Source: Nitrospira japonica (GTDB lineage: Bacteria; Nitrospirota; Thermodesulfovibrionia; Thermodesulfovibrionales; DYHX01). Taken from it: a DNA stretch of 47,677 nt. The notes under the pieces were generated by a model. It saw only the letters and a program-made list of their open reading frames with translations. It made no database searches and had not been told where the DNA came from. Made by a program: the position numbers and the translations under genes. Positions 29,173 through 47,550 of the stretch are shown here, in pieces (position 1 is the first letter of the stretch; every line of letters starts with the position of its first letter). The stretch is from contig DYHX01000005.1 of the NCBI GenBank assembly GCA_020723925.1, forward strand, positions 1 through 47,677, written 5' to 3'.

Positions 29173-30543
29173 TTATATCTTCAATACATAATACCTCAGC
29201 CAGACATAAACTGTTGAAATCACGACCGTCATTATCATTATCGGCATTCCATAGAGCATAAACTTTCCAAAGGATATTCTTTTACCGAGTTTCTCTGACA
29301 TCCCGACCACAATGACATTTGCCGATGCGCCGATTGCAGTGCCGTTTCCGCCAAGACATGCGCCGAGCGCAAGTGACCACCACAGAGGCATGAGGTCAAC
29401 ATGATGAAGAAGCTGGATTCCAGAAAGGTCAGGCCACAACTGTTTTGCCATGTCAACCATCAATGGGTTCATTGTCGCAACATAGGGGATGTTATCTATA
29501 AATGCAGATGCAAATGCGGAAAACCACATGACGACCATTGATGTAGCAAATAAGTTTCCCTGCGTTATATTAAGAACCTGAATGGACATCCATTTTATAA
29601 GACCTACTTTTACAACGCCGCCGATAATAATAAAAAGCCCCATGAAAAAGAATATTGTAGGCCATTCCACCTCTGCTAAGACATGATGCGGCTCGTGGGT
29701 CTTTGAAAGTAAGAGCAACAACCCTGCTCCGAATAATGCTATTGTTGCAGGCTGGAAGTGAAGCATTCCGTGAAGCACAAAACCTGTCAAAACCATTGCA
29801 AGGACTACAAGTGATTTCTTCAGCATCACAGGGTCTTTAATCGCCTCATTCTCATTCATAGCCATTATCCTTTTCTTGAGTTCCTCTTTTGTCTTTAGAT
29901 TTTTCCCCCATATGAGTTTTATGGCAAAGACATAGAAGACCATTGTTATGATTATTACCGGCGTAAGATGATATATGAAGTCCATAAAATTCAGCTGCGC
30001 CTTTGAGGCTATCATTATGTTCGGCGGGTCGCCGATGAGTGTTGCGGTACCGCCTATATTTGATGCTAAGGCACATGAAATAAGATAAGGCAGAGCATCA
30101 ACCTCAAGCGCATCAGCGATAAGGATGGTAACAGGCACGATTAAAAGCACTGTCGTGACATTATCGAGGAAAGCGCTCAAAGTTGCCGTAACAACGGCAA
30201 ATATAGCTAAAATCCTCATTGGATCTCCCTTGCCCCATTTTGCGCTCTTGATTGCAAGATACTCGAACACCCCTGTAGGCCTCATAAGATTGATTATCAC
30301 CATCATAGAGATAAGGAGAAAGATTACATTCCAGTCAATCCCAAACTCCTCAAGATGAAATGCCTCGCGCTGCTCAAGTATTTTTAAAACGAGCATCAAT
30401 CCCGCTCCAAATACCGCAATAATTGTCTTGTGTATCTTTTCGGAAACAATTACAGCATAAGCAAGTAAAAATATTGTCGTGGCAGTCCAGAAGGCTGTGT
30501 CCATGACAAATGGCTGTGATGCAGTGGCTGCTTCGTGTGTCAT
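29173..30543 (-). CDS. ArsB/NhaD-type ion transporter (IT superfamily)
   Basis: 456 residues with about 11-12 transmembrane helices in two inverted halves. Signature regions are SAFLDNVTTVLLIVPVTI and IGGTATLIGDPPNIMIAS in the first half, FASAFIDNIPYVATMNPL and GGNGTAIGASANVIVVG in the second. These are typical of the ArsB/NhaD/P-protein branch, which moves Na+/H+, arsenite or organic anions. Substrate cannot be read from sequence. The ATG overlaps the upstream CBS gene stop as ATGA, so it is coupled to that putative regulator. Confidence 0.88.
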   Translation of the reverse strand: MTHEAATASQPFVMDTAFWTATTIFLLAYAVIVSEKIHKTIIAVFGAGLMLVLKILEQREAFHLEEFGIDWNVIFLLISMMVIINLMRPTGVFEYLAIKSAKWGKGDPMRILAIFAVVTATLSAFLDNVTTVLLIVPVTILIADALEVDALPYLISCALASNIGGTATLIGDPPNIMIASKAQLNFMDFIYHLTPVIIITMVFYVFAIKLIWGKNLKTKEELKKRIMAMNENEAIKDPVMLKKSLVVLAMVLTGFVLHGMLHFQPATIALFGAGLLLLLSKTHEPHHVLAEVEWPTIFFFMGLFIIIGGVVKVGLIKWMSIQVLNITQGNLFATSMVVMWFSAFASAFIDNIPYVATMNPLMVDMAKQLWPDLSGIQLLHHVDLMPLWWSLALGACLGGNGTAIGASANVIVVGMSEKLGKRISFGKFMLYGMPIMIMTVVISTVYVWLRYYVLKI

Positions 30544-31073
30544 TTTTCACCTTCATCTTCTTTATTGTTGAACTTTGAACCTTCAACTTTCAACATTGAA
30601 CTGTTTTCTTCAAGCATCGCCTTTGTGATGGCAAAAAATACATCCCTTTCATAGAGCATCCCCACTACTTTGCCTGTTTTGTCTACTACAGGAAGTCTTT
30701 TTACATTCTTCTTAATCATATGGTCAACGCACTCCATCAAGGATGCATCCCCTCTGACTGTCATAACATCCCTTGTCATCACCATTGCTACCTTTTTGTC
30801 TGCTACCTTCTTTGCAATGGATTCAACCATCCCATCCCATGTGAAATCTCCAAGGTCCATCAGAGACATATACGATGGCCATACAGCCTTGAGTATGTCC
30901 CTCATCGAGAGCATTCCTACGAGCTTCCCGTTTTCATCGAGCACAGGCAATCCCTTAACCCCAACCCTTTCTTCCCCTCTCTTCGCAGTCCTCAAAAGAT
31001 TAACAGCATCTTTAAGGGTGTTGTCAGGCCGCAAATACTCCTGAAGGGGTGTCATTAAGTCTTTAGCTTTCAT
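30540..31073 (-). CDS. CBS-domain pair protein (1)
   Basis: 177 residues, two CBS motifs. First: KAKDLMTPLQEYLRPDNTL to GLPVLDENGKLVGMLSMRDIL. Second: VAMVMTRDVMTVRGDASL to RLPVVDKTGKVVGMLYERDVF. CBS pairs bind adenosyl compounds and regulate attached or partner proteins. Translational coupling to the carrier at 29173 suggests it gates or senses for that carrier. The C-terminal tail (about 160-177) is encoded by a run of TTGAACTTT/CTTCAACTTTCAAC repeats and is probably not functional. Confidence 0.9.
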   Translation of the reverse strand: MKAKDLMTPLQEYLRPDNTLKDAVNLLRTAKRGEERVGVKGLPVLDENGKLVGMLSMRDILKAVWPSYMSLMDLGDFTWDGMVESIAKKVADKKVAMVMTRDVMTVRGDASLMECVDHMIKKNVKRLPVVDKTGKVVGMLYERDVFFAITKAMLEENSSMLKVEGSKFNNKEDEGEK

Positions 31074-31088
31074 AATTCCTCCTGTTTA

Positions 31089-31211
31089 TTTAGTGAATAG
31101 TTAAAGATAAAACTGTCATTGCGGCTTGTCCGCAATCTTTCCCTTGTTTTAGAAGAAGGATTCCCGTCAAGCGGGAATGACATATTAACTTTGCCTTTAC
31201 TATTCACTTTA
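31089..31211. repeat. Composite GTGAATAGT inverted repeat with nested palindromic element
   Basis: Outer arms TTTAGTGAATAGTTAAAG (31089-31106) and CTTTACTATTCACTTTA (31195-31211). Nested inside is a 69-bp element (31114-31182) bounded by TGTCATT/AATGACA, with two hairpins: ATTGCGG-CTTGT-CCGCAAT and ATTCCCG-TCAAG-CGGGAAT. This fills the gap between the LCIB-like gene and the CBS gene, and the outer repeat supplies the LCIB-like stop codon (31204-31206). Confidence 0.75.
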
Positions 31212-31947
31212 ATGTTATTTCCTGTCTTATTCCATTCATAACTACATAACACGATACTGGCCATACATAATTAACCTCCGGCCCGTGTATCTGTATGCCT
31301 GTTATTATTGCATAATCACTCTTATCGGTGTTCACCGTTAGACTTATCATACGTTCTAAATCAGCCTCAATTGCTTTCTGTGTAATCTTTGTGAGTTCAA
31401 AAAGGTCAGGAGCAATGTCAGAGGGAATTTCTTTACTCAACCTCATTCTTATAAGGCTCATCTCTATGTCGTCTGTAAAGGCAGTGTCAGTGTCTGTGTC
31501 AGTCTGGCCGGCACTGTCACTGATTTCTTTCTGCAATGCAACCAGCGCCCCACATGCAGATGATTCCCCTTTTCTGCCTTTTCTAACACATACGCCTATC
31601 TGTCCCTGTGAGTCAATTGCTATATGCGGCATGGCAAAAAAGATATATCTCTCTTTTCCTTCTTCGTCAGGAGAATGATGTTCGGCTGCCATGAAACCTG
31701 TCCTGCCAAGAAAAAGCATCCCTGCAAGGCTTGAGAGATTAAAGGCATATCCCCATTTTCTGTTAACTTCTTCAAAAAAGGATTGGCTGATTTCATCTCT
31801 ACAGATTCCAACGCAGGCGATTGAGTTGTTTGCATTGAAACCAAATTTATTCAATGATTCATAAGTCCTTTTCACAAAATCGGCCTCAGGCATCGAACCT
31901 TGAAAAGCCTCTTGTAATCTTTTTTCAAAATTATGTTCGCTATTCAT
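31204..31947 (-). CDS. LCIB-type (theta/beta-like) carbonic anhydrase family protein
   Basis: 247 residues, soluble. The order of motifs matches the algal limiting-CO2-inducible LCIB/LCIC family: FGFNANNSIACVGICRDE (35-52), LAGMLFLGRTGFMAAEHHSP, ERYIFFAMPHIAI and GESSACGALVAL. Predicted zinc ligands are C49, H108 (or H90/H91) and C132, with the R50/D51 dyad next to the first Cys as in active family members. It may interconvert CO2 and bicarbonate. Flanked by SLC13 and CBS/ArsB-NhaD genes on the same strand. A short TDTDTDT tract near 149-155 is a minor low-complexity insert. Family membership is from memory of the motifs, not from a search. Confidence 0.78.
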   Translation of the reverse strand: MNSEHNFEKRLQEAFQGSMPEADFVKRTYESLNKFGFNANNSIACVGICRDEISQSFFEEVNRKWGYAFNLSSLAGMLFLGRTGFMAAEHHSPDEEGKERYIFFAMPHIAIDSQGQIGVCVRKGRKGESSACGALVALQKEISDSAGQTDTDTDTAFTDDIEMSLIRMRLSKEIPSDIAPDLFELTKITQKAIEADLERMISLTVNTDKSDYAIITGIQIHGPEVNYVWPVSCYVVMNGIRQEITLK

Positions 31948-31950
31948 TGT

Positions 31951-31982
31951 TTACTATTCACTAAATACTATTCACTATTCAC
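31951..31982. repeat. GTGAATAGT-family repeat, direct copies
   Basis: TTACTATTCACTAAATACT followed by ATTCACTATTCAC. It fills the 35-bp gap between the SLC13 carrier stop and the LCIB-like start, replacing any clear ribosome binding site. Confidence 0.7.
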
Positions 31983-33491
31983 TTACTTAATTAATATCGG
32001 CATTCCCAGAAGGGGCCACATGGTAACCAGTGCTATGCCGAGAACCAGTATCAATATAATACTCATTGGTATGCCGTGTTTAAAGAATTCACCTGTTGTA
32101 AACTGCTTTGATTCATACGCAATGGCATTCGGAGCTGCACCGATTAACAACACAAAGGGCATGCCTGCCGTTACAAGTGAAGCATAAAATATCGGCTCCG
32201 GTGCAACACCGAGATATCCGGCTACGACAAGGGAGACCGGAAGCGATATTGCGATTGCCGCAACGTTCATTATGAAATTTGTCATTATCAGGACAAATGT
32301 GGCTATGCTCAAAACAAACACCAGCCAGTGCGCTTTCTGGAACATTACAAGCCACTCAACAGCCATCCACTGTGCAGCGCCTGTTTGCCATAGGCAGAAA
32401 CCGATGCTCATAGCGCCGCTGAACAGCAGAATAATATTCCATGGTATTTCTTCAAGTTCTTTGACTGTAAGTACCCTGAATATGAAGAAAAGCAGAGTTG
32501 ATACAAGCATGATGGCTGACCTATCCAATGCCTTCAAAGCAGGGACAAAGGACTGTAGGGACATTGTGATTACAACTCCGATTACGCAGAAGATTACAAA
32601 TTTTTCATCTCTGCTTAGTGGTCCAAGCTCTTTTGAAAGCCTTTTCACTTTATCTCTCAAACCAGGGATTACTTTCTTTTCAGGCCTCGAGAGAATCATT
32701 AAGAGTATCCATATTACGAAGACCATTCCCCAACCAATCGGGAACATATATTTGGTCAGTTCAAAAAAGCTTATGTCTGTTCCTGTAAATTCTTTGAACA
32801 TTCCTGCTGCTGCCGGCGCACGGGCAGAGCCGAGGATTGTTACAATACTGCCTGCTCCTGCTGCATAAGCCATCCCTATGAAAAGGGCCTTGCCGAATTT
32901 TGTCTGTTTATCTCCTTCGCCATAAAGGGCATGGATAGCTAATAAAATAGGGAATACTGTGGCTGCTGCTGCTGTGTGCGCCATAAAATGAGCCAAGCCT
33001 GCTGTTATCACAAGGGCGCCTAACACAATCATACTTGTTTTTTCTCCAACGACTTCCAGCATCTTGTAAGCAAGGCGTTTGGTCAGGCCTGTCTTTGTAA
33101 AAGCAAGGCCAACGATAACTGAGCCGAAAATAAACATAACAGAAGGGTCCATGAAATCTTTGAAGGCATCTTTTGCAGAGCGGATTGCAAAGATAGCCTG
33201 AAACACGCCGATTGCAAGAGCTGTTACTCCTATCGGCATGACCTCAAAAACCCACCATATTCCAGCCAGCAAAAAAAGCGCTATAGCTCCCTTGCCCTGT
33301 TGTGATAAAGGGAATACTTTACCGGTTGGGTCAACAGCATCCTTCCACTGGGGCATGTAATAAATAAAAAGGAAAATACCTAAGCCCAATAAGATGAAAA
33401 ACACCCTTTTCCAGTCAATCTTTATTTTAGGAACAGCAACTCCTATCTCTTCGGGCGGCTCTGGTAAGCCGTGTATCTCTTTTTCTGCCAT
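31983..33491 (-). CDS. SLC13/DASS family anion transporter
   Basis: About 502 residues, 11-13 transmembrane helices after a 40-residue soluble N-terminus. The two hairpin regions are present: SVMFIFGSVIVGLAFTKTGL plus GLAHFMAHTAAAATVFPIL in the first half, and IPWNIILLFSGAMSIGFCL plus MTNFIMNVAAIAISLPVSL in the second. Family members carry sulfate, dicarboxylates or similar anions, usually with Na+. Several SNT motif positions differ (HTA, NVA), so the substrate may be unusual. ATG at 33491 follows GGGGGGTAGG. Begins 1 bp after the upstream CBS gene. Confidence 0.88.
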   Translation of the reverse strand: MAEKEIHGLPEPPEEIGVAVPKIKIDWKRVFFILLGLGIFLFIYYMPQWKDAVDPTGKVFPLSQQGKGAIALFLLAGIWWVFEVMPIGVTALAIGVFQAIFAIRSAKDAFKDFMDPSVMFIFGSVIVGLAFTKTGLTKRLAYKMLEVVGEKTSMIVLGALVITAGLAHFMAHTAAAATVFPILLAIHALYGEGDKQTKFGKALFIGMAYAAGAGSIVTILGSARAPAAAGMFKEFTGTDISFFELTKYMFPIGWGMVFVIWILLMILSRPEKKVIPGLRDKVKRLSKELGPLSRDEKFVIFCVIGVVITMSLQSFVPALKALDRSAIMLVSTLLFFIFRVLTVKELEEIPWNIILLFSGAMSIGFCLWQTGAAQWMAVEWLVMFQKAHWLVFVLSIATFVLIMTNFIMNVAAIAISLPVSLVVAGYLGVAPEPIFYASLVTAGMPFVLLIGAAPNAIAYESKQFTTGEFFKHGIPMSIILILVLGIALVTMWPLLGMPILIK

Positions 33492-33492
33492 T

Positions 33493-34026
33493 TTACCTAC
33501 CCCCCTCACTTTTCAAGATAGCATCTGTCAGTTCATCAAATACCTCTATCATCCTGACCACACCAACCAGTTTCTTTTTGTTTTCAAGAACAGGAAGTAA
33601 AATCAGGTCATTGTGGAGCATTAGATATGCTGCCTTGGTTATGGGGTCATCCGTCCCAACAAAAAACTTGGCTGAAATCATAACCTCGCTCACAGGTCTT
33701 TCTGATAGCTTTTTTGATTCCTTATCAAAAAGGCTGTCCCAGATTATGGATAATCCTACTTCATTATCTTCAGTGACCTGAGCCTTCACAGAAGGTCTTA
33801 AAAACTTTGGCTCAAGCCCTTTCAGGATATTGATGTGTGTCAATGTGCCGACGAGATTGTATTTTTCGTCAAACACCAGCACTACGATTGGTCTGACACA
33901 CTTAGCGCTTTCAAGTACTGATTTTTTGATAATTCCCATTGCCTGTCTTATCGAAAACCAATACGGAATGTGAGGAAACTCAAAGACATCAACCATCAAA
34001 TCCTTTACTGTTTTCCCTCCTGCCAT
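33493..34026 (-). CDS. CBS-domain pair protein (2)
   Basis: 177 residues with two CBS motifs. First: TVKDLMVDVFEFPHIPYWFS to LVGTLTHINIL. Second: PVSEVMISAKFFVGTDDPI to ILLPVLENKKKLVGVVRM. Same length as CBS protein 1 but clearly divergent. Directly precedes the SLC13 gene, so each carrier in this cluster has its own adjacent CBS protein. The ATG follows a strong GGAGGAGG. Confidence 0.88.
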   Translation of the reverse strand: MAGGKTVKDLMVDVFEFPHIPYWFSIRQAMGIIKKSVLESAKCVRPIVVLVFDEKYNLVGTLTHINILKGLEPKFLRPSVKAQVTEDNEVGLSIIWDSLFDKESKKLSERPVSEVMISAKFFVGTDDPITKAAYLMLHNDLILLPVLENKKKLVGVVRMIEVFDELTDAILKSEGGR

Positions 34027-34046: not shown

Positions 34047-34101
34047 TAGTGAATAGTCGTTAGTGAACAGTCGTCAGTAAAAAACTATTCACTATTCACT
34101 G
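34047..34101. repeat. GTGAATAGT-family inverted repeat
   Basis: TAGTGAATAGTCG and TTAGTGAACAGTCG on the left, ACTATTCACTATTCACTG on the right. Lies between gntR and the CBS gene; the gntR stop codon (34096-34098) is inside it. Confidence 0.75.
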
Positions 34102-34833
34102 TTTTCTTTCAAGTTCTATAGTCAATTTAAACCTGTCAGGCCTTTTGATTGAACGAGAAAACATTATCTGGCTTTCACCTGAATAAAAGTACTGACTCAG
34201 GAGCAATGCTGCAGCCCCACCAGATAAACCTAAAAGCCTTCCTTCATTCTCATTAAGATATGCAATTTCAATATACCCCTTTACCTTTGTAATCTTTATG
34301 CCGTACTTTTTCTCAAAAAGCTCAAAAATGGAATTGTTCTCAACATCTTCCTCAATGAAAGGGGGACATATATGGTAGGGGATATATGTTTCCTGAACTA
34401 AAACAGGTTCATTGTCAACTGTCCGTAATCTCTTGATATAAATGATATGTTTATCCTCAGGGACATTGAGTTTTACATACAGATCATCAGATGGCATTAT
34501 CACAGTTTGAGCAAGTACTTTTGTAGAGAAATTCACGCCTGCCTCAAGCATGAGCTCTCTGAAACTTGTCAGCATTGAAAGACCTTCAGTGATAATCCTT
34601 TTGCAAACAAAAGTTCCCTTCCCCTGTTGGCGTCTTAGATAACCCTGTCTTGCAAGCCCTAAAATAGCAGTTCTTACTGTTGCCTTACTTACGCCGTATA
34701 TCTTGCAGAGATCTTCTTCTGTGGGTATCTGAGAATCAGCAGCCCATTCCCCGCTTTCTATCTTCCCTCTTAATCTTTCATGGAGCTGGACATAAAGCTT
34801 TTGAGGATTTTCTCTGTCAATTAATTCTTTCAT
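34096..34833 (-). CDS. GntR family transcriptional regulator (HutC/UTRA type)
   Basis: About 245 residues. Winged helix near 5-70, with recognition region KIYGVSKATVRTAILGLARQ and wing LRRQQGKGTFV. A UTRA effector domain follows (about 90-240). Start set at ATG 34833 (MKELIDRENP); the frame continues upstream to 34872 into a MITE-like repeat. Divergent from the PEP-synthase-like gene at 35093 and first of the minus-strand carrier series, so it probably regulates one or both; see the palindromes at 35034 and 43427. The UTRA ligand is unknown. Confidence 0.92.
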   Translation of the reverse strand: MKELIDRENPQKLYVQLHERLRGKIESGEWAADSQIPTEEDLCKIYGVSKATVRTAILGLARQGYLRRQQGKGTFVCKRIITEGLSMLTSFRELMLEAGVNFSTKVLAQTVIMPSDDLYVKLNVPEDKHIIYIKRLRTVDNEPVLVQETYIPYHICPPFIEEDVENNSIFELFEKKYGIKITKVKGYIEIAYLNENEGRLLGLSGGAAALLLSQYFYSGESQIMFSRSIKRPDRFKLTIELERKQ

Positions 34834-34842
34834 ATTACTTAT

Positions 34843-34974
34843 GAGCCACTTGCAAAAGTCCCATTTTGTCACCCTGAATTTATTTTAAGGTCTCATAACC
34901 AATTGATTTTATTAGATGCTGAAACAAGTTCAGCATGACATAGTGTGTTATTCAAAGACTTTTGCAAGAGCCTC
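34843..34974. mobile_element. 132-bp MITE-like element upstream of gntR
   Basis: Terminal inverted repeats GAGCCACTTGCAAAAGTC (34843-34860) and GACTTTTGCAAGAGCCTC (34957-34974) match at 15 of 18 positions, with the inner 12 bp (CTTGCAAAAGTC) perfect. TTAT lies directly outside both ends (34839-34842 and 34975-34978), a possible 4-bp target duplication. Inside are GTCACCCTGAATTTATTTTA and GCTGAAACAAGTTCAGCATG palindromic parts typical of extragenic repeats. Non-coding. Confidence 0.75.
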
Positions 34975-35033: not shown

Positions 35034-35047
35034 GTCATTATAATGAT
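35034..35047. promoter_or_regulatory. Candidate GntR operator, site A
   Basis: GTCATTATAATGAT, a palindrome with one mismatch (perfect form GTCATTA-TAATGAC). Located 46 bp upstream of the PEP-synthase-like start. It contains TATAAT (35039-35044), so a bound protein would cover a likely -10. A near copy lies at 43427-43440. That GntR binds it is inference. Confidence 0.5.
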
Positions 35048-35092
35048 ATAAACCCAACTTGTCGAGAGTTTTTTTCTAAGTTATAATTAAAT

Positions 35093-37642
35093 ATGCTTGA
35101 TTTTTTAAAAATATTCAAAAAATCTTCTAAGGGGGCACAGCAAAACATTATCCTCAGAGAAGCTTTTAAAAACAAATATTATACATTTCAGAAACTTCTC
35201 ACGAAAAACAACCATATTCTTGAGCTTATGGCAGATATGGAGGAGAAACTTTCAGGCGAATACCTGTTTGACAGGCATTATATTAATACAAATGTCAGGC
35301 TAATTGCTGATGGGGTTTTTAAAATCATTGAAAACCTTAATGCCCTCTCTAACAACAAATACATACAGCTTTATAAAGTCTACGATGATATATACAAAGA
35401 GATTGATAAGACCTTATCGCATAAATTAGCGGTGCCGGTCAGTGACCTTACTATTCCTCTTGAAAAGCTTACCAGTGAGATGTCTGATATTGCAGGTGGC
35501 AAAATCGCACATTTAGGTGAGATAAAAAACCGCCTTAATCTTCTAACCCCTGATGGTTTTGCAATTACTGCATACGCATTTAAAAGACTTATGGAAGATA
35601 ACAGGTTCACAGAAAGGATAAATGAAAGACTATCAGCAGTGAGCATAGATAATATGGCAAAGCTTAATGAAGTCAGCAAAAAAATACAAAACATGGTAAT
35701 AGGGGCGGAAATCCCTGATGATTTAGAGAAGGCTATCAGAGATGCCTATTCAAAGCTTTGCGATAAAGCCGGCCAGAAGGTTATGGTCTCTGTAAGAAGC
35801 AGTGCACTGCAGGAGGATGGGGAATTCAGTTTTGCAGGGCAGTATTCCACCTTTCTAAATGTAAGGGGAGATTTAATCCTTCAGAGGTATAAAGAGGTTG
35901 TGGCAAGTCTATTTACCCCACAAGCAATATTCTACTATAAGACAAAGGGCTTTCAGGAATATGATATGGTCATGTCCGTGGGTGTCCTCGCAATGGTTGA
36001 TGCCAGGGCAGGAGGTGTAATGTACTCAAAAGACCCAAATGACCCGCAAAAGAATACCATTATCATCAGCGCTATCTGGGGATTGGGGAAATGCGCAGTT
36101 GAAGGAGTGGTAACCCCTGAAACATATACTGTATCAAGATATCCGGATACAGCCATAATCGAAAAAAGGATTCCAAGACAAGAGACTATGCTTGTATGCA
36201 GGCCAGATGGAGAACTGGAAGAAGTGGTTTTATCTGATGATATGAAGGGAAAGCCTTGCCTGACCGATGAACAGATAAAAGTTCTTGCTGATTATGCTAT
36301 TGCTCTTGAGAATCACTATAAATGCCCTCAAGACATAGAATGGGCAATCGATGAAAACAGCCAGCCTTACATTTTACAGACCCGGCCATTGAGAGTCGCT
36401 GCAAAAGAGGCAGCAAAGCCTGTTCCCACCCGAATCAGCGGTTATAACATCTTAATTGACAAAGGTGTCATTGCATGCAAAGGGATAGGTTTTGGCAAGG
36501 CATGTGTTATAAGAACAGAGGAGGATTTGAAGAACTTCCCTGAAGGTGCTGTGCTTGTGGCAAGGCATACCTCTACCAAATTTGTAACTGTTATGAATAA
36601 GGCGTCTGCTATTATTACAGATGTTGGAGGCGCTGCAGGACACATGGCATCACTTTCCAGAGAATATCGAATTCCAACAATTCTTGATACCGAAGTGGCA
36701 ACAACTACCATCAAAGGTGGGCAGGAGATAACAGTGGATGCTATTAACTGTAATATTTATGATGGAAAGGTTAATGAACTTCTTGAGTATGCTTTAAAAA
36801 AGAAAGAGCCTTTTAAAGACACACATCTGTTTACAACATTGGAAAAGGTATTAAAATGGATAGTTCCTCTGAATTTAGCAGACCCTGAAGATGAGAACTT
36901 TAAGCCTGAATATTGTATGACTTTTCATGATATAACACGCTTTGCTCACGAAAAGGCGATGCACGAGATGTTCAAGATTACTGGAATACCCTCTGTAGAA
37001 GATGGTGAGGCGGTTAGACTCGTAGCAGGGATACCCCTTGATGCATATCTTATTGACTTAGGTGACGGCATAGAAGGTGCTCCCAAAAAACTCAGACCTG
37101 AACATATCCGCTCCGCACCCTTCAATGCCTTTTTCAGAGGTCTTGTTTCGATGAAATGGCCTGAGCCAAGGCCTTTTGATGTGAAAGGGTTCTTTGGCAT
37201 GGTGGCACATACTACTTCCATACCAGAAGGAGAGCTTGAGCAGGTGGGCGAGAAGAGTTTCTCGTTTATTTCCAGTGAATATATGAACTTCTCCATCAGG
37301 CTCGGTTATCATCTCTCAACAGTCGAGGCATGCGCAAGAGAAAACATAAACGACAATTATATAAGGTTCTTCTTTAAAGGCGGAGGTGCTGTTAGAGACA
37401 GAAAATTAAGAAGGGTCAGGCTGATAACCGAAATACTCAAAAAGATGGACTTCAAGGTAAATGTCACAGAAGACGTCATCGATGCCATTATCACAAAGTA
37501 CAAAAAATCAACCATTGAAGAAAAATTAGAGATATTGGGCAAACTTACAGCCTACACCAAACAATTAGACATGGTCATGTATAATGATGCCATTACTGAC
37601 TGGTATATAGAAGAATTCGTTAAAGACCACATGAAGCAGTGA
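35093..37642 (+). CDS. PEP synthase-like protein without the TIM-barrel domain
   Basis: 849 residues. An N-terminal helical region (1-130) has no known domain. Then a pyruvate phosphate dikinase-type ATP-grasp domain (about 140-445) with VMVSVRSSALQEDG and the terminal DIEWAIDENSQPYILQTRPL. Then a PEP-utilising mobile domain (about 455-570) with the phospho-His motif GGAAGHMASLSREYRIPTI (H517). The PEP/pyruvate-binding TIM barrel is absent; instead there are about 240 residues beginning after EYALKK that I cannot assign. It could be a dikinase with a different acceptor. Divergent from gntR; its stop codon lies in a GTGAATAGT repeat. Confidence 0.82.
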   Translation: MLDFLKIFKKSSKGAQQNIILREAFKNKYYTFQKLLTKNNHILELMADMEEKLSGEYLFDRHYINTNVRLIADGVFKIIENLNALSNNKYIQLYKVYDDIYKEIDKTLSHKLAVPVSDLTIPLEKLTSEMSDIAGGKIAHLGEIKNRLNLLTPDGFAITAYAFKRLMEDNRFTERINERLSAVSIDNMAKLNEVSKKIQNMVIGAEIPDDLEKAIRDAYSKLCDKAGQKVMVSVRSSALQEDGEFSFAGQYSTFLNVRGDLILQRYKEVVASLFTPQAIFYYKTKGFQEYDMVMSVGVLAMVDARAGGVMYSKDPNDPQKNTIIISAIWGLGKCAVEGVVTPETYTVSRYPDTAIIEKRIPRQETMLVCRPDGELEEVVLSDDMKGKPCLTDEQIKVLADYAIALENHYKCPQDIEWAIDENSQPYILQTRPLRVAAKEAAKPVPTRISGYNILIDKGVIACKGIGFGKACVIRTEEDLKNFPEGAVLVARHTSTKFVTVMNKASAIITDVGGAAGHMASLSREYRIPTILDTEVATTTIKGGQEITVDAINCNIYDGKVNELLEYALKKKEPFKDTHLFTTLEKVLKWIVPLNLADPEDENFKPEYCMTFHDITRFAHEKAMHEMFKITGIPSVEDGEAVRLVAGIPLDAYLIDLGDGIEGAPKKLRPEHIRSAPFNAFFRGLVSMKWPEPRPFDVKGFFGMVAHTTSIPEGELEQVGEKSFSFISSEYMNFSIRLGYHLSTVEACARENINDNYIRFFFKGGGAVRDRKLRRVRLITEILKKMDFKVNVTEDVIDAIITKYKKSTIEEKLEILGKLTAYTKQLDMVMYNDAITDWYIEEFVKDHMKQ

Positions 37643-41997: not shown

Positions 41998-43248
41998 CTA
42001 TCCCACCTCTCTTAATTGTTTGAGGTTTGTAAAAAACTTACCGAAAACCCATATGCCGAAGAAACCTACAACTACCCAGAATACAATGGAGCCAACAAAC
42101 TCAATGCCATTGACCACGGACTTAGACATGTCTATAACCTCAAGCTCTGTGAGCTTTTTTGGAAGCACGGTTAGTCTGTTTACAAAGCCGGCAAGGATAG
42201 AGACAGCATAAAATCCTCTGATATGTATCCCCTTGACAACCTTCGTAGTGAGCGCTCCCACCTGAATGCCGATTAGTGAGCCAATCAGCATACCCATTGC
42301 AAGGGTGTAAAATACATAGCCATAAATAGCATACTGACCGACTGCAGCAAGCCCTGCTGTAAAGATAATCTGCAGTATATCTGTCCCAACCGTTGTCATA
42401 GAGGAGATGCCAAAGATATAGATAAACATGGGGAAGGTTATAAAACCGCCACCAACACCCATGATTGCCGCCATAACACCAACCACGACCCCACCCATGG
42501 CAACAATAATCCCTGAAATCCTTTTCCCACCAGGAATATAATCTTCATCAAATTTAATCATCGGCGGAACATTTATCGCCTGCAATTTTATTGCAAGGGG
42601 AGGCGTGCCTGATGGGGCACTACCGTGTGCATCCCCGCCGCTGTCTCCTTTCCTCGACCTTAGAAAGTCAGCAAGGGCGTAAAAACCGAGGAACCCAAGT
42701 AATGCGGCATAGACTGCACTGATAAATGCCTCGCTCAAGAGTGGGTCCTTGTTATAGAGCCCTTTGTTTATAGCACCGCCAATAAATGTTCCGCCAGCAG
42801 AACCGACAAGAAAGGCCAGCGCAAGCTTGGCCGAGACATTGCCGAGCTTTTTATGCACCGCTGTTCCCATAATCGCCTTTGCAAATATATGGAACAAATC
42901 CGTTCCCACCGCAAGGATGCCTTTTACCCCAGCTGCCATCAGCGCAGGCGTAATTATAAACCCTCCGCCTGCGCCAATGCACCCTGTGATCAATCCTGCT
43001 GCCAACCCAATTGCAATTGAGATAATAAATATCTTTGTGGCATAAAATGCTGGTGCGTAGGCAGTCTTTCCACCTAGGACTGACCCGGCCTCTGTAAAAG
43101 TTACTGCAAGAATCGGCAGTAATAAGATTAACAGGATTAGAAGTTTCTTCCGATTTTTTATAATGGACATAGAAACCTCATAATCCCATCTGGCGTGAGC
43201 AACAGATGACATCTTGAGAAATTCAAAAACCCTTCTTGGAACACTCAT
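41998..43248 (-). CDS. TauE/SafE family permease (COG0730), long form
   Basis: 416 residues, larger than the permease at 24281. N-terminal soluble stretch, then about eight to nine helices. The duplicated glycine-rich motifs are GCIGAGGGFIITPALMAAG and MGVGGGFITFPMFIYIFG. A soluble loop (about 195-235) with a Gly/Ser/Pro tract links the halves. Predicted anion exporter; substrate unknown. GGAGG precedes the ATG by about 11 bp. First gene of the minus-strand series down to 37685. Candidate promoter and palindrome lie upstream at 43427-43478. Confidence 0.9.
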   Translation of the reverse strand: MSVPRRVFEFLKMSSVAHARWDYEVSMSIIKNRKKLLILLILLLPILAVTFTEAGSVLGGKTAYAPAFYATKIFIISIAIGLAAGLITGCIGAGGGFIITPALMAAGVKGILAVGTDLFHIFAKAIMGTAVHKKLGNVSAKLALAFLVGSAGGTFIGGAINKGLYNKDPLLSEAFISAVYAALLGFLGFYALADFLRSRKGDSGGDAHGSAPSGTPPLAIKLQAINVPPMIKFDEDYIPGGKRISGIIVAMGGVVVGVMAAIMGVGGGFITFPMFIYIFGISSMTTVGTDILQIIFTAGLAAVGQYAIYGYVFYTLAMGMLIGSLIGIQVGALTTKVVKGIHIRGFYAVSILAGFVNRLTVLPKKLTELEVIDMSKSVVNGIEFVGSIVFWVVVGFFGIWVFGKFFTNLKQLREVG

Positions 43249-43359: not shown

Positions 43360-43426
43360 CATTACTGAGCAGCAATCTATAAGACAAGCAGCCCAACTGT
43401 TCCTTTATTTCTTCTATTATGGTTAT

Positions 43427-43440
43427 ATCGTTATAATGAC
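43427..43440. promoter_or_regulatory. Candidate GntR operator, site B
   Basis: ATCGTTATAATGAC matches the perfect palindrome GTCATTATAATGAC at 12 of 14 positions. Allowing for orientation, a 16-bp stretch here (43425-43440) matches the complement of 35034-35049 at 15 positions. It lies just downstream of a possible promoter for the tauE series. Binding by GntR is inferred. Confidence 0.45.
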
Positions 43441-43493: not shown

Positions 43494-44942
43494 TCACTTA
43501 AATATCTCCCTCCAGCGAATAATCCTGACTCTGCCCCCTCCGCCGAGGGATTGGGAGTCTGAAAATTCAGAGGTGTTGCCTTCACTGTCCATTGCCGTTG
43601 CTGTTACAGAGTCAGAAGGCAAGACACCCGGAACCGTCAGGGTTCCCTCAAAGCTGCCTCCTTTTACAGACAGTGTACCAAGGTATCTGCCCTGTCTTGA
43701 GTTAACAGGGTCAGACTTGAATACCTCGACAAAATCGGCCTGACGGCAGGCTGTCCCCTGAACCTTTAACTGGTTTCCTGAAAGGCTGACACCTGTTATT
43801 ACAGGGAAGTCCATCCCCCTGTTGGGCTGGCTGCCTGAGTTACATACACCATCGTTTTCAGTAACCCCGTCGTTACCCAGGTCTATGCCGATAACCGAAT
43901 TCTGATATATGTGGTTCTGGGTAATTTTGTTCTCGCGTGTCGAATCCCGCATATCTTCACCTATAACGACGCCCCCTTGGTTAAAGGCTATCGTGTTCAG
44001 AGAGATGGTATTTCTGTCAGACTTGTTCATTATGTAAATACCGTGGCCGTTTCCGAGGGCGCTATCTCCGTCTGCCGCTGTGCCTATCCAGTTGTTTGAG
44101 AGGGTGTTTCTCGTATCCGGCCCTCCGTCAATCCGCACTCCATCCTCGGTGTTACCAGATATGTAGTTCCCGGAGATTGTATTATGTTTCGCGCTGCTGC
44201 TTATGTATATTCCCGTGGCGTTGGGAAGTGCGTCGGTCCCGTTCGGTTTGAGCCCGATATAGTTCCCCTTGATTTCATTGCTGTCGCCCTTGAAAATCCA
44301 TATACCGTAAAGGGTATTCCCTGATATGTAATTCCTCTTGTCCTCAGTGTCACCCCCTATCGTATTCTTATCCGCTGCACTGGTGTCTATAACTATCCCA
44401 TACTTGTTTCCGAGACCGGTTGCCCCCGAAGAATCCGTCCCTATGAATGAGCTCTCGACTGTGTTTGAGTCGTCCTTTAAATAGATGCCGTAACCATCAG
44501 TCATCACATATACAGTAAGCCCTTTCAGCAAGACATTTCGGCTGGAGATGTAAACAGCATATGCGCTCGAGGCAGAATTGCCGACAATTGTAAGGTTCTG
44601 CAGAGTTGTGCCTTTTCCGAGGTCGAAAAATCTTGCGCCGGTAATAGTGGAGAAATTCCGTATCGTGTGATTATTGCCATTGACGGTCACGTTATCTTTA
44701 TCTCTCTTCGAGAGGTCATAGGTCCGTCCGTTAGCGTCCACATTGGTCTGGATGGTGATGGTCTGACCGTTCTTGACATTGCTTACAGCGCAGCTTAATG
44801 TCCCGTTGCTTCCGTCATCAAAGGAGATATCAACAGTCAGCTTTCCTGCACATGGTGCTGCCACGGCAATATCGCCACTCACCGCTGCAATAAGCAGCGA
44901 ACAGACAATGATGATTGATGCCTTATGGTAAAAACCCACCAT
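43494..44942 (-). CDS. Secreted right-handed beta-helix protein
   Basis: About 482 residues. Sec signal peptide (hydrophobic 8-24, probable cut after AVA). Then many PbH1-type turns such as NTISGNYISGNTEDGVRI and YGIWIFKGDSNEIKGNYIG, giving a NosD/parallel beta-helix (about 80-370), and a C-terminal Ig-like beta domain (about 385-470). Start at ATG 44942, with GGAGG 10 bp upstream. Lies 27 bp after the PilX-like gene, so in the pilin operon. Could be a pilus-tip adhesin, a polysaccharide-binding or a cleaving protein; no catalytic residues identified. Confidence 0.8.
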   Translation of the reverse strand: MVGFYHKASIIIVCSLLIAAVSGDIAVAAPCAGKLTVDISFDDGSNGTLSCAVSNVKNGQTITIQTNVDANGRTYDLSKRDKDNVTVNGNNHTIRNFSTITGARFFDLGKGTTLQNLTIVGNSASSAYAVYISSRNVLLKGLTVYVMTDGYGIYLKDDSNTVESSFIGTDSSGATGLGNKYGIVIDTSAADKNTIGGDTEDKRNYISGNTLYGIWIFKGDSNEIKGNYIGLKPNGTDALPNATGIYISSSAKHNTISGNYISGNTEDGVRIDGGPDTRNTLSNNWIGTAADGDSALGNGHGIYIMNKSDRNTISLNTIAFNQGGVVIGEDMRDSTRENKITQNHIYQNSVIGIDLGNDGVTENDGVCNSGSQPNRGMDFPVITGVSLSGNQLKVQGTACRQADFVEVFKSDPVNSRQGRYLGTLSVKGGSFEGTLTVPGVLPSDSVTATAMDSEGNTSEFSDSQSLGGGGRVRIIRWREIFK

Positions 44943-44969
44943 CCTTTTCACACCTCCGCCTCAAGAGCC

Positions 44970-45875
44970 TTACTGAAGAGGCATAATAGTGCCCTGTACC
45001 ACCCGGTTTATATTGCCAGCCAAAAGGGTCGTCTGCATAACACCCTCGACTGTCACAAGGACGCTTATATAGGACTGGTAAACAGTCCTGCCCTGGTTAT
45101 GGTTAAAACCGTTACCTCCGCCGTTAAACGCCTTTCTGACACATCCGGTAAAACTCGTAGCTGTCTTCCCTGTGTAAAAAACATCCTCTATCAGAGTTTC
45201 GTTCGTCTCGACTATCCTTATAAAACCCTTTTCTAAAAAGCCTGCTGTTGAGTCAACATCTATCGTGGTGTCCTTCGGTTTCACATTTTTACGAAGGGTT
45301 GCCGAGACAGATGTATCCCATGTGTAGGACAGGACCGCAGCGTTCTGTGGATGTGCTGAGTTGTTGCTGCTGTCCCGCCCTCTCGTACATGTCGAAAAGG
45401 AGGTATCTGTTTTTCCAGTACAGCTTATCTTCTCGAGGGTAGATGAGGTATTCAGGGGCTGGGTCTTATCGACAGCAGAAAGCATTATCCAGTAGCCGCC
45501 CTGGGGGGCCTGGGTAAAGCCTTCTGTTGCCTTGAGGTTGCCTGTAAAGGAATATATCGATACATTAATAGGTCCGGTTGTTCCGGCATTTATGCTATCA
45601 GTCAAATACGGTATGGAAGAAGTAAATCTCCCGCTGCCGAGATTAACGGGCGTCGTAATCTCATACTCAGGAAAATCATTCTTTCTGATAACATACTGCA
45701 GACCACCATCTGCGATATAGAAGACATGAGCCCCCTGCTCTTCCTGAAGACCGATGTTGCTTCCAGTTGTAACGAGCGAGACCGCAACTGCAATGAAGAG
45801 AGAAAATATCAGTAGTGCGAGGATTGCGGCGATGAGGGAGACGCCAGATTGGTTCTTCACAGTTTTCATTTTCAC
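44970..45875 (-). CDS. PilX-like prepilin / pilus assembly protein
   Basis: 301 residues. A type IV pilin-like N-terminus, GVSLIAAILALLIFSLFIAV (11-30), without the usual FTLIE Glu-5 form, as in PilX/GspK-type minor pilins. The C-terminal part contains two similar units: CTGKTDTSFSTCTRG... and YTGKTATSFTGCVRK..., each followed by a His-containing stretch. The start overlaps the PilW-like stop as ATGA. Confidence 0.75.
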   Translation of the reverse strand: MKMKTVKNQSGVSLIAAILALLIFSLFIAVAVSLVTTGSNIGLQEEQGAHVFYIADGGLQYVIRKNDFPEYEITTPVNLGSGRFTSSIPYLTDSINAGTTGPINVSIYSFTGNLKATEGFTQAPQGGYWIMLSAVDKTQPLNTSSTLEKISCTGKTDTSFSTCTRGRDSSNNSAHPQNAAVLSYTWDTSVSATLRKNVKPKDTTIDVDSTAGFLEKGFIRIVETNETLIEDVFYTGKTATSFTGCVRKAFNGGGNGFNHNQGRTVYQSYISVLVTVEGVMQTTLLAGNINRVVQGTIMPLQ

Positions 45876-46387
45876 AGGTTTCTGAGGTAAACCTCTGACT
45901 GAAGCTGGACGCTCTCACCGGAAATTGTTGATGTTAAGTTTATCCCTATCATCCTCGTTTTTGCAGGAGGTGCTGGGTCAGGAGTCCCATCTGCCTGAAT
46001 GTATGAAAAAGTAAAAGCATCTATATTTGTAGCAAGTGTATTCCCAGCAACACCAGGGCAAGCAGCCCCACCCTCTTCCCTTATTATGTTGGGGTTTGCG
46101 TACCTGAAACTTATCCTTACTCCATTAACATTAATAAAACAAAACTGTGATGCATTAGCAGTCTCTATATCAGATAGGCTTCTCACATTCCTCATCTCCC
46201 GCGTCATCCTCTCCACAGCAATACGCCCATTGTCAAGCGCCTCCTTGCGGTAGTCAGTCACAAAGAATGCCCTGATACCTGTTAACATTGCATCAGCCAC
46301 TATAAAGGCAACAATGCCTATCAAGACCATCGTCATAACAAGCTCTACGAGGGTAAAACCTCTATGGTCATTATGCTTCATATCCAT
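45872..46387 (-). CDS. PilW/GspJ-like prepilin
   Basis: 171 residues. Leader MDMKHNDHRG followed by FTLVELVMTMVLIGIVAFIV, the class III prepilin peptidase site with Glu at +5. The body has RIAVERMTREMRNVRS, typical of PilW/GspJ minor pilins. Its start overlaps the upstream PilV-like stop as TGATG and its stop overlaps the PilX-like start. Confidence 0.88.
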   Translation of the reverse strand: MDMKHNDHRGFTLVELVMTMVLIGIVAFIVADAMLTGIRAFFVTDYRKEALDNGRIAVERMTREMRNVRSLSDIETANASQFCFINVNGVRISFRYANPNIIREEGGAACPGVAGNTLATNIDAFTFSYIQADGTPDPAPPAKTRMIGINLTSTISGESVQLQSEVYLRNL

Positions 46388-47001
46388 CAGTAATTCGAGA
46401 CAACAGTCACAAGTTGAACGTTGCTGTCCCAGTTTGCCGGGGCAGTAACTGTGATTGCTATTTTTTTATAATTCGACGTGCCTCCAATGCAGGTAGTAAG
46501 GTCTGCTGAATCCACATAGCAAACAGAAGCACTCACCGTAAAGTTCACCCCATTAGCCGTAACAATGTCCGGAGTTGCGTTCAGAAAATTATAATCATCC
46601 ACATCATCAAAGTCTTCCCTTGCCTCTCCATCAGGCCCAATGGCAGATGGGGACACTGCCCCGCTACAGCTCGGCGCTGTTGCCGCTGTCTCATCCCAGC
46701 ATTTTGCCCTTATCTCCTCCAATACTGCCTGGGCAACGTTTGTGGCAGTGACCCTGAGTTCTGCGTCAACACCCAGTTTTGCTCCCTGACCAAGAAGTAT
46801 GAGAAGGGCCGGGACCGCGATGGCAACTACAATAATAACCATCACAATTTCTATCAGGGTAAAACCCCTTTTATTAGCAGACAATAAGCAATAGCCAGTA
46901 ACCAGTTTCTTTAAATAACTCCGAACGGCTCGATTGAGCTCGCCGAAGTCTCTGAACCGCTGCTCTGAGCCTGCCGAAGGGTCCAAACTCCGAACTTTCA
47001 A
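46387..47001 (-). CDS. PilV/GspI-like prepilin (start uncertain)
   Basis: Up to 204 residues; prepilin motif RGFTLIEIVMVIIVVAIAV. The body has AQAVLEEIRAKCW, as in PilV/GspI minor pilins. The frame opens with TTG at 47001, overlapping the FimT-like stop as TTGA, but the first 40 codons run through a REP-like repeat and would give an abnormally long leader. A TTG about 46884, just before SANKRGFTLIE, gives a normal short leader and is more likely the mature start. Confidence 0.82.
   Translation of the reverse strand: MKVRSLDPSAGSEQRFRDFGELNRAVRSYLKKLVTGYCLLSANKRGFTLIEIVMVIIVVAIAVPALLILLGQGAKLGVDAELRVTATNVAQAVLEEIRAKCWDETAATAPSCSGAVSPSAIGPDGEAREDFDDVDDYNFLNATPDIVTANGVNFTVSASVCYVDSADLTTCIGGTSNYKKIAITVTAPANWDSNVQLVTVVSNY
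46919..46998. repeat. REP-like repeat at the prepilin start
   Basis: AACTCCGAACGGCTCGATTG, then a CTCGCCGAAGTC / CTGCCGAAGG region and AACTCCGAACTTT at the end. This is a widely distributed extragenic palindrome type. It shares the AACTCCGAACT unit with the ileS repeat at 2685. Confidence 0.65.
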
Positions 47002-47489
47002 TAGCTCACCCTCCCTGTGCCTGCCTCTATGGTAATTGTCCTGCTGCCATTAAACGTAACTGTCACGGTCTGGGTTGACAAAGCCGCACCCCCCGAATCA
47101 ACAGGCATGCCAAGTGAGTTAAACGCTATTGTAGCGACAGAAAAAGCAAGCTGTACCCTCTCGTAACTACTGCATCTATTCTGTGTGAAGTCAACCACAA
47201 AATTATATGACGCATCGGTTGAGCATGGGTCGCCAGGGCTTTTTGCAGGTTTTGATGTGGTTATATCTTCGTAAACACTATACCCATTAGCATTTAGCGC
47301 AATCGCTGACCTCTGCTGGGTTGTGATAGCAAGCTTCTGGGCATATCTTATATCAGCCGCAACCTTGCGTGTGGCACTGTCAAGCTTAACAGTGTCAAAA
47401 GGGTTTCCCCTCAGAAAAACAACAGCAGCAAGGATACCGACTACAACCATTATTATCACTGTCTCTATGAGCGTGAAACCCCGTGACAT
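46998..47489 (-). CDS. FimT/GspH-like prepilin
   Basis: 163 residues. Leader MSRG followed by FTLIETVIIMVVVGILAAVV, a classic prepilin peptidase site. Body with ATRKVAADIRYAQKLAITTQQ, typical of GspH/FimT pseudopilins, and a C-terminal beta domain ending ITIEAGTGRVSY. Start set at ATG 47489 with GGGAG just upstream. First of four prepilin genes plus the beta-helix gene. Confidence 0.9.
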   Translation of the reverse strand: MSRGFTLIETVIIMVVVGILAAVVFLRGNPFDTVKLDSATRKVAADIRYAQKLAITTQQRSAIALNANGYSVYEDITTSKPAKSPGDPCSTDASYNFVVDFTQNRCSSYERVQLAFSVATIAFNSLGMPVDSGGAALSTQTVTVTFNGSRTITIEAGTGRVSY

Positions 47490-47550
47490 AAGCTCCCTTT
47501 TTGTGAAGATTATATCATACCCCTTATTTTCGAGCCAGCACATTATTCAG

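Follow-up and report, generated by a model that had tools for sequence, protein, structure and literature searches.

What is a gene for an LCIB-type, carbonic anhydrase-like protein doing in a bacterial operon, in the company of carriers and CBS-domain proteins? The question is raised by a 47,677-nucleotide stretch of DNA from Nitrospira japonica, referred to here as the window. The gene order, the proteins, their distribution among relatives and the metabolism of the host were used to answer it.

Gene order and the control region

A first-pass annotation had described five genes in one order on one strand, separated by short gaps or overlaps. All five reading frames were found where it had placed them, on the minus strand. 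In the direction of transcription, they encode an upstream CBS-domain protein (33493-34026; PF00571, 36.7 bits), which is the first structural gene of the cassette, a DASS (SLC13-type) carrier (31983-33509; PF00939, 160 bits), an LCIB_C_CA family protein of 247 aa that is a putative beta-type carbonic anhydrase (CA) (31204-31947; PF18599), a second CBS-pair protein (30540-31073; PF00571 in two stretches, 102 bits) and, paired with it, a CitMHS/ArsB/MamN-like carrier (29173-30543; PF03600, 301 bits against a cut-off of 31.9, E=1e-89). The reading frames of the upstream CBS protein and the DASS carrier, as called from GTG, overlap by 17 bp. Gaps of 35 bp and 130 bp separate the LCIB gene from the DASS gene and from the second CBS gene, respectively, and the claimed ATGA coupling of this CBS gene with its carrier is present as a 4-bp overlap at 30540-30543.

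Two further genes had been overlooked. A gene for a GntR/UTRA (HutC-type) transcriptional regulator (34096-34872, minus strand; PF07702, 111 bits; PF00392, 64 bits) precedes the upstream CBS gene and is the first of the operon. A gene for a PEP-synthase-like (PPDK-like) protein (35093-37642, plus strand) is transcribed divergently from the conserved intergenic region of the operon. In about 20 cassettes the regulator gene is in the same place, and the PPDK-like gene is the divergent partner in about 20 as well. The PPDK-like protein matches only PF01326 and PF00391 (PPDK_N and mobile domain). No C-terminal PEP/pyruvate-binding domain was recognised in the profile search, and PEP synthases in the PDB match it over residues 121-572 only.

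The best predicted promoter of the region, TCGACA-17-TATAAT (35037-35065, minus strand), is a consensus match only, with 11 of 12 positions in agreement. Its -10 box is overlain by a candidate operator, TTATAATGATATAA (35038-35051, unstranded), which is an inverted repeat TTATA-N4-TATAA. Of 22 homologous intergenic regions, 20 contain the repeat with at most one mismatch (expected 3.4; shuffle maximum 9). The exact matches in the loci compared are all located in the operon intergenic region, except one inside mrpD and one at 43423. The latter suggested a wider regulon that would include a TauE/SafE gene, and was rejected because the site is unconserved upstream of the orthologues. The inverted repeat at the -10 box is probably the site from which the GntR regulator controls the PPDK-like gene as well as the operon.

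Each CBS protein has one conserved phosphate/ribose-type motif (G-h-h-T/S-x-x-D/N) and one degenerate motif. In the upstream protein a single CBS repeat scores in PF00571, and the motif GTLTxxN/D is kept in its orthologues. Its gene directly precedes the DASS gene in nearly all cassettes, and the protein is presumed to be the regulator of the DASS carrier. Judging from their CBS folds, the CBS proteins probably tune carrier activity in response to a nucleotide, and from these folds the energy gating suggested by the first-pass annotation is a possibility.

The LCIB-type protein and the DASS carrier

The LCIB-type protein is a true member of the PF18599 family, as had been proposed. The profile matches it at 208.5 bits (curated cut-off 25, E=1e-61), and LCIB itself is a sequence match in the PDB (5k5w, E=2e-41). 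The AF2 model (pLDDT 92) matches the folds of LCIB and PtLCIB4 (5k5w/5b5y) with TM 0.79-0.83, and beta-CAs rank after these two with lower scores. C49-R-D, H108 and C132, to which the first-pass annotation had drawn attention, belong to a set of residues (C49, R50, D51, E52, H108 and C132) that does not vary among 38 aligned homologues. The Cys-His-Cys metal ligands and the Asp/Arg align with the corresponding residues of LCIB/PtLCIB. The expected agreement of the ligand residues with the predicted structure, judged by overall fold and alignment, was not contradicted. From sequence and model, we infer that the protein may act as a carbonic anhydrase. Chlamydomonas LCIB and LCIC have a CA-like site, yet are without CA activity in vitro (PMC8825250); an intact site in the bacterial protein is therefore no proof of catalysis, and the role of the algal protein is debated for the same reason. 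A search of plasmids for LCIB gave no match. The scan of genome contigs with the single LCIB protein found one distant relative only (L031), whose neighbours were uninformative. Weak LCIB matches in family f7 covered the profile only partially and were set aside.

The DASS carrier scores 206.6 bits with TIGR00785, over the cut-off of 198.6, and is thereby assigned to the family. It matches VcINDY in sequence with E=9e-28. NaS1, NaCT and VcINDY are the best PDB matches of its AF2 model (pLDDT 85; TM 0.75-0.83), and the best of all is human NaS1, a sulfate carrier. The score over the family cut-off and a full fold match unite the window carrier with VcINDY and NaS1. It differs from them in having mostly a CBS gene before it and an LCIB gene after it, and in its SNT motifs, which are altered to AHT (177-179) and MNV (414-416) and conserved as such in the clade. 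The two SNT motifs associated with Na+ and carboxylate in VcINDY are thus lacking, which argues against a dicarboxylate substrate and leaves the assignment to the DASS/SLC13 fold family unaffected. We regard the protein as a candidate Na+/HCO3- symporter and infer the anion. To our knowledge, no DASS/SLC13 protein is known to carry HCO3-.

The cassette among related genomes

The neighbourhoods were surveyed in 167 genomes of the same class. The order GntR > CBS > DASS carrier > LCIB recurs across the survey; because it is found in more than 20 other genomes, the arrangement is not due to chance. The proposed linkage of LCIB with SLC13 and CBS genes is therefore conserved in related genomes. 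LCIB was present in 27 of the 31 genomes with the DASS clade and in 8 of the 136 without it (Fisher p=6e-20, uncorrected for phylogeny). A beta-CA was present in all four DASS-clade genomes without LCIB, compared with 8 of the 27 with LCIB (p=0.016). Over all 167 genomes the exclusivity of LCIB and beta-CA is weak (p=0.05), so the argument rests on the DASS-clade genomes; both are absent from 72 of the 167.

The partnership of DASS and LCIB is not obligatory: in five cassettes (G194, G180, G130 and both copies of L085) no LCIB gene lies between the DASS carrier and an antiporter, and LCIB accompanies an MrpD-like gene in three family-f6 genomes that are without the DASS clade. G072 retains LCIB and has a broken DASS gene. 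Elsewhere in the phylum, the neighbours of LCIB include a bestrophin gene that overlaps it by 4 bp (L032), a Ca2+/H+ exchanger gene 12 bp upstream (L047, L048) and an MrpD-like gene paired with it (L070, L072, L073). Universal stress protein genes adjoin several cassettes.

The place occupied in the window by the CitMHS carrier is exchangeable. A cation/H+ antiporter-type module fills this slot in 24 of the 26 readable cassettes: NhaD in ten, CBS plus CitMHS carrier in six, a longer CitMHS carrier with Usp in five and an Mrp operon in three. Two cassettes have a sigma-54 regulator and no antiporter. The first-pass annotation had placed LCIB between two carrier/CBS pairs. This is so in the window, but the second pair is one occupant of a variable slot and not a fixed part, since most relatives have NhaD, Mrp or the longer CitMHS carrier there. 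The CBSc-CITM pair also occurs at L034, L039, L046, L049, L062, L081, L083 and L085. The NhaD proteins of relatives score 165-169 bits with NF038006 (cut-off 80) and match TIGR00775 (NhaD) below its equivalog cut-off. For the Mrp slots, subunits score over the cut-offs of PF01899 (MNHE), PF04039 (MnhB), PF00361 (Proton_antipo_M) and PF00420 (Oxidored_q2). The window carrier falls within broad Pfam families only, such as CitMHS, and stays under the equivalog cut-offs of MamN (182 of 500 bits), ArsB (113 of 457) and NhaD_1 (29 of 80). It matches ArsB PF02040 at 72.7 bits and the ArsB structure 10tp with E=4e-14. The CitMHS carrier of the slot was not accepted as a proven Na+/H+ antiporter, because it reaches no equivalog cut-off and NhaD co-occurs with it in L039 and L049.

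Inorganic carbon uptake as a candidate function

The genome of the window (93.8% complete) contains CODH/ACS and dsrA; RuBisCO, beta-CA, SulP, DabA and SbtA were not found in it. Carbon is probably fixed by the Wood-Ljungdahl pathway. CODH/ACS is nearly universal in the class, in which many genomes have the cassette. In the order, dsrA and CODH/ACS are both near-universal and therefore do not discriminate between the hypotheses.

We give an even chance to the explanation that the operon serves the uptake of inorganic carbon in an anaerobic bacterium, with HCO3- import by the DASS carrier, an antiporter in the slot and CO2 release by LCIB. HCO3- would enter through the DASS carrier, driven by Na+. 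The slot antiporter (CitMHS here, NhaD or Mrp in relatives) would then expel Na+ and admit H+; for NhaD and Mrp the antiporter family is assigned by profile, and for CitMHS it is presumed. LCIB would turn HCO3- and H+ into CO2 for CO2-using enzymes, or might run in reverse and trap CO2. The net result would be the conversion of outside HCO3- and H+ to inside CO2, with Na+ recycled. The exchange of the slot for NhaD or Mrp, the coupling of bestrophin with LCIB and the beta-CA in LCIB-less cassette genomes strengthen the role of bicarbonate. Points against it are the fold match to a sulfate carrier, the lack of a known HCO3--carrying DASS/SLC13 protein, the dsrA of the organism, the inactivity of the algal proteins in vitro, the cassettes and genomes in which DASS and LCIB are not together, the broken DASS gene of G072, the sigma-54 regulators in two slots and the 72 genomes without LCIB and beta-CA.

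The main rival, which we consider unlikely, is that the DASS carrier imports sulfate together with Na+ for dissimilatory sulfate reduction, and that LCIB is there only to handle the CO2 and pH changes of sulfate-dependent growth. Like almost every genome of the order, that of the organism contains dsrA, so the cell does need to import sulfate. The absence of SulP from the genes found and the closeness of the fold to NaS1 fit this explanation. Sulfate transport is also known or proposed for members of the DASS family and considered possible for TauE/TSUP proteins (PMC5840216); genes of the latter lie near several cassettes. However, almost the whole order has dsrA, and the DASS clade occurs in just 31 of the 167 class genomes. 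The sulfate reducer Thermodesulfovibrio yellowstonii, from the same phylum, has neither DASS nor SulP, and CysP/TSUP are its candidates (PMC5840216, Table 1). No sat, apr or dsr gene is among the labelled cassette neighbours, for which annotation is partial. Sulfate transport also leaves unexplained why the operon contains a CA and why every LCIB-less cassette genome contains a beta-CA.

Somewhat less probable still is the movement of a C4-dicarboxylate, pyruvate or a similar organic acid that would be carboxylated or decarboxylated inside, with LCIB interconverting CO2 and HCO3- and the PPDK-like protein handling PEP. In its favour, metabolite sensing is common among GntR regulators of the HutC type, di- or tricarboxylates are the substrates of many bacterial DASS proteins that have been characterised, such as VcINDY, and the divergent PPDK_N protein is conserved. 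Yet both carboxylate-binding SNT motifs of VcINDY are replaced by the conserved AHT and MNV, none of the conserved operon genes was identified as one for a carboxylase or decarboxylase, and the PPDK-like protein is without a recognised PEP synthase C-terminal domain. Least probable of the three is outward or bidirectional pH/CO2 homeostasis, in which metabolic CO2 would be hydrated by LCIB, HCO3- would leave through the carrier, alone or in exchange for another anion, and H+ or Na+ would come back through the antiporter: NhaD and Mrp are classic pH homeostasis systems, exchangers exist among DASS proteins, and the Ca2+/H+ exchanger and the stress proteins mentioned above would fit, but inward is the normal direction of Na+-coupled DASS carriers, and uptake is the more pressing need because the genome has CODH/ACS and neither a known importer of dissolved inorganic carbon (DIC) nor a beta-CA was found in it.

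Inorganic-carbon uptake, the explanation preferred here, has parallels in known systems. In Aphanothece halophytica and Ca. Nitrospira alkalitolerans, bicA is clustered with Mrp and NhaB genes, and Na+ extrusion was proposed to drive HCO3- uptake (PMC7784846). A Na+-coupled HCO3- carrier, Na+/H+ antiporters and a carbonic anhydrase supplying CO2 would be common to these Mrp/Nha clusters and the window operon. The carrier is SulP there and DASS/SLC13 here; the window operon itself encodes the CA, which is of LCIB type, together with a GntR regulator and CBS proteins, and the host probably uses the Wood-Ljungdahl pathway instead of the rTCA or Calvin cycle. In algae, LCIB/LCIC has bestrophin-like proteins, candidate HCO3- channels, as interaction partners (PMC6708349). 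The LCIB fold, the site residues and the company of an anion carrier are shared with this system (PMC6708349, PMC8825250), and in L032 the gene that overlaps LCIB is likewise for a bestrophin. The window, in contrast, has DASS instead of bestrophin and a single LCIB without an LCIC partner, and RuBisCO was not found. DAB complexes (DabA/DabB) also take up DIC by means of an antiporter-type subunit in the membrane and a CA-like partner in the cytoplasm. In layout, the MrpD-like > LCIB gene pairs resemble them; LCIB itself gives no match to the DabA model.

Whether DIC transporters of Wood-Ljungdahl organisms still await description is a question posed in a 2024 review (PMC10880623). We tentatively suggest, at somewhat less than an even chance, that the operon represents a new class of DIC uptake in Wood-Ljungdahl bacteria, with the first DASS/SLC13 HCO3- carrier, LCIB, an exchangeable antiporter and nucleotide control by CBS proteins. 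If this is true, bicarbonate would join the substrates of the SLC13 fold, and bacteria would offer a simple context for LCIB, one in which its partner carrier is defined. For Wood-Ljungdahl organisms, which are mostly without known inorganic-carbon transporters, the operon is a concrete and testable candidate.

Gene order and the LCIB-family protein

Between 34872 and 29173, the minus strand carries a GntR/UTRA regulator gene followed by genes for a CBS protein, an SLC13-type (DASS) carrier (31983-33509), an LCIB-family protein (31204-31947), a second CBS protein and a CitMHS/ArsB-like carrier (29173-30543). The first CBS gene overlaps the DASS gene by 17 bp, and gaps of 35 bp and 130 bp separate LCIB from DASS and from the second CBS gene. 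The second CBS gene overlaps the CitMHS gene by 4 bp, which confirms the ATGA coupling reported in the first-pass annotation. A PPDK-like gene (35093-37642) diverges from the far side of the GntR intergenic region. Its 849-aa product has PPDK_N and phosphohistidine domains, and the last ~280 residues matched no known domain. Since about 20 genomes keep this gene in divergent orientation next to the operon, it is probably co-regulated with it. Elsewhere in the window, a beta-helix (NosD-like) protein gene (43494-44951) lies near three type II secretion/pilin-like genes (45872-47543) whose products carry N-terminal methylation motifs.

The LCIB assignment, first made by eye, was borne out by a PF18599 score of 208.5 bits (cut-off 25); the protein is the single PF18599 member in its genome (93.8% complete). 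The best PDB sequence matches were the algal LCIB (E=2e-41) and LCIC (E=1e-40) structures. An AlphaFold2 model built from 38 homologues (mean pLDDT 92) matched LCIB, LCIC and PtLCIB4 at TM 0.70-0.83, followed by beta-carbonic anhydrases. The proposed metal-site residues C49, R50, D51, H108 and C132 are invariant in 38/38 homologues, as is E52; the zinc-site comparison rests on alignment with solved structures. Carbonic anhydrase (CA) activity in vitro is absent from algal LCIB/LCIC (PMC8825250). The protein of the window is a putative carbonic anhydrase.

Conserved linkage and the exchangeable downstream gene

The LCIB and DASS proteins were each searched in 396 genomes of the phylum, and 60 neighbourhoods were mapped. 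The linkage of carrier and CBS genes noticed in the window is conserved: most members of this order and class that have LCIB share the arrangement GntR, CBS, DASS, LCIB, preceded by the divergent PPDK-like gene. The LCIB-linked DASS clade (at least 65% identity) has a sharp boundary: the proteins nearest to it fall to 47-49% identity and further DASS proteins to about 30%. Among 167 genomes of the class, LCIB was present in 27/31 with this clade versus 8/136 without it (Fisher p=6e-20, uncorrected for shared ancestry). A beta-carbonic anhydrase was found in all four DASS-clade genomes lacking LCIB (G194, G180, G130, G376) versus 8/27 with LCIB (p=0.016), as would be expected of a system that requires a carbonic anhydrase of some kind.

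Several variants were also recorded. In genome G072, the DASS gene (neighbourhood L050, 1632-3110) is broken by several stops while LCIB and the CitMHS carrier are still open, and the DASS carrier is possibly decaying. Contig C34 of genome G282 (L085, L058) carries several cassettes: DASS-CBS-CitMHS is followed by GntR-CBS-DASS-NhaD, and GntR-CBS-LCIB, lacking the DASS gene, lies at a distance of about 15 kb. In genome family f7 (L086, L087), DASS relatives at 47-48% identity keep the first SNT motif and still adjoin the PPDK-like gene and a TauE/SafE gene, without LCIB; these may be ancestral or different-substrate versions.

The gene after LCIB could be read in 26 cassettes with DASS and LCIB. 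It was NhaD-type in 10 (two with a 129-aa insert and one with an intervening short CBS-like ORF). Six cassettes, that of the window included, had CBS plus CitMHS, two of these also with NhaD behind; five had a longer CitMHS carrier and then a universal stress protein, three an Mrp operon and two a sigma-54 regulator. NhaD representatives passed the NF038006 cut-off, and the tested Mrp subunits passed those of MNHE, MnhB, Oxidored_q2 and Proton_antipo_M; labels for the remaining members come from their similarity to these. Thus, of the two carrier/CBS pairs described around LCIB, CBS-DASS recurs, but CBS-CitMHS is one filling among several (6/26). Exchange among unrelated families sharing known Na+/H+ antiport activity is the main clue to the role of this position, and the CitMHS carrier of the window may be such an antiporter.

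Elsewhere in the phylum, a bacterium of another class has a bestrophin (PF25539) gene with a 4-bp overlap into LCIB (L032, 7552-9368). This echoes the algal partnership, where the Chlamydomonas LCIB/LCIC complex interacts with bestrophin-like candidate HCO3- channels (PMC6708349). In L047 (7289-9088) and L048 (8335-10137), 12 bp separate LCIB from a Ca2+/H+ exchanger gene upstream. An MrpD-like protein (PRK12668 family) directly precedes LCIB in L070, L072 and L073, behind an Mrp operon in L073; L070 and L073 also have a downstream Usp gene. This layout recalls DabB-DabA. Across several unrelated arrangements, LCIB thus accompanies either cation/proton exchangers or channels of the HCO3- type.

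Candidate regulation

The inverted repeat TTATA-N4-TATAA occurs with at most one mismatch in 20/22 GntR/PPDK-like intergenic regions (3.4 expected, at most 9 in shuffles), an optimistic figure since these 22 loci also served to find the motif. The window copy (35038-35051) lies over the -10 box of the region's best promoter-like match (35065-35037), and this box may itself account for part of the conservation. A second exact copy (43423-43436; 0.1 expected by chance in the window) lies upstream of the TauE/SafE-family gene (41998-43248) and was not conserved upstream of its orthologues. Each CBS protein keeps one phosphate/ribose-type motif. Nucleotide sensing would be plausible, and the "energy-gated" system of the first-pass annotation is a hypothesis.

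Carrier substrate and a possible ion cycle

The DASS protein passed the TIGR00785 cut-off and aligned to VcINDY, and its predicted model (pLDDT 85) matched NaS1, NaCT, NaDC3 and VcINDY. The two SNT motifs of VcINDY hold Na+ and carboxylates. At these positions the LCIB-linked clade keeps AHT and MNV throughout; less closely related DASS proteins of the phylum have SNT/TNA, HDA/SNS or SEH/SNA. A further DASS-like subfamily (L093-L100) has HDA where the first SNT motif would stand, conserved across eight genomes. The AHT/MNV residues speak against an ordinary dicarboxylate substrate and are compatible with a small inorganic anion, bicarbonate and sulfate alike.

Sulfate import is the strongest rival to bicarbonate, as the organism has dsrA and the modelled fold is closest to NaS1. 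However, dsrA is near-universal in the order, unlike the DASS carrier; DASS is also missing from a cultivated sulfate reducer of the phylum (PMC5840216), and sulfate would leave the carbonic anhydrase link unexplained. Organic-acid transport by the carrier and outward pH control by the operon are less likely.

The genome also encodes the CODH/ACS beta subunit, which suggests a Wood-Ljungdahl pathway that may run in either direction; searches for RuBisCO, beta-CA, SulP, DabA and SbtA in this genome (93.8% complete) found none. Nitrospirota, the phylum named in the first-pass annotation, fits, and the order is probably Thermodesulfovibrionales. A 2024 survey of inorganic-carbon toolkits reports that Wood-Ljungdahl organisms have few DIC transporters and calls for undescribed ones; neither LCIB nor SLC13 is named in its text (PMC10880623). 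The literature searched, with most subscription papers outside its scope, held no description of an LCIB-DASS operon or a DASS bicarbonate carrier. The parts belong to known families, and the LCIB-DASS combination is new relative to that literature.

For bicarbonate, we propose that the DASS carrier would bring in Na+ with HCO3-, the downstream antiporter would move Na+ out and H+ in, and LCIB would dehydrate HCO3- with exactly the H+ so supplied. The three activities would form a closed cycle with the net reaction HCO3- + H+ (out) -> CO2 (in). An equivalent scheme was proposed for Aphanothece halophytica and Ca. Nitrospira alkalitolerans (PMC7784846); the logic is alike, but the carrier there is BicA and here DASS. 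Such a cycle would explain why DASS, LCIB and an antiporter sit together and why the antiporter family is exchangeable.
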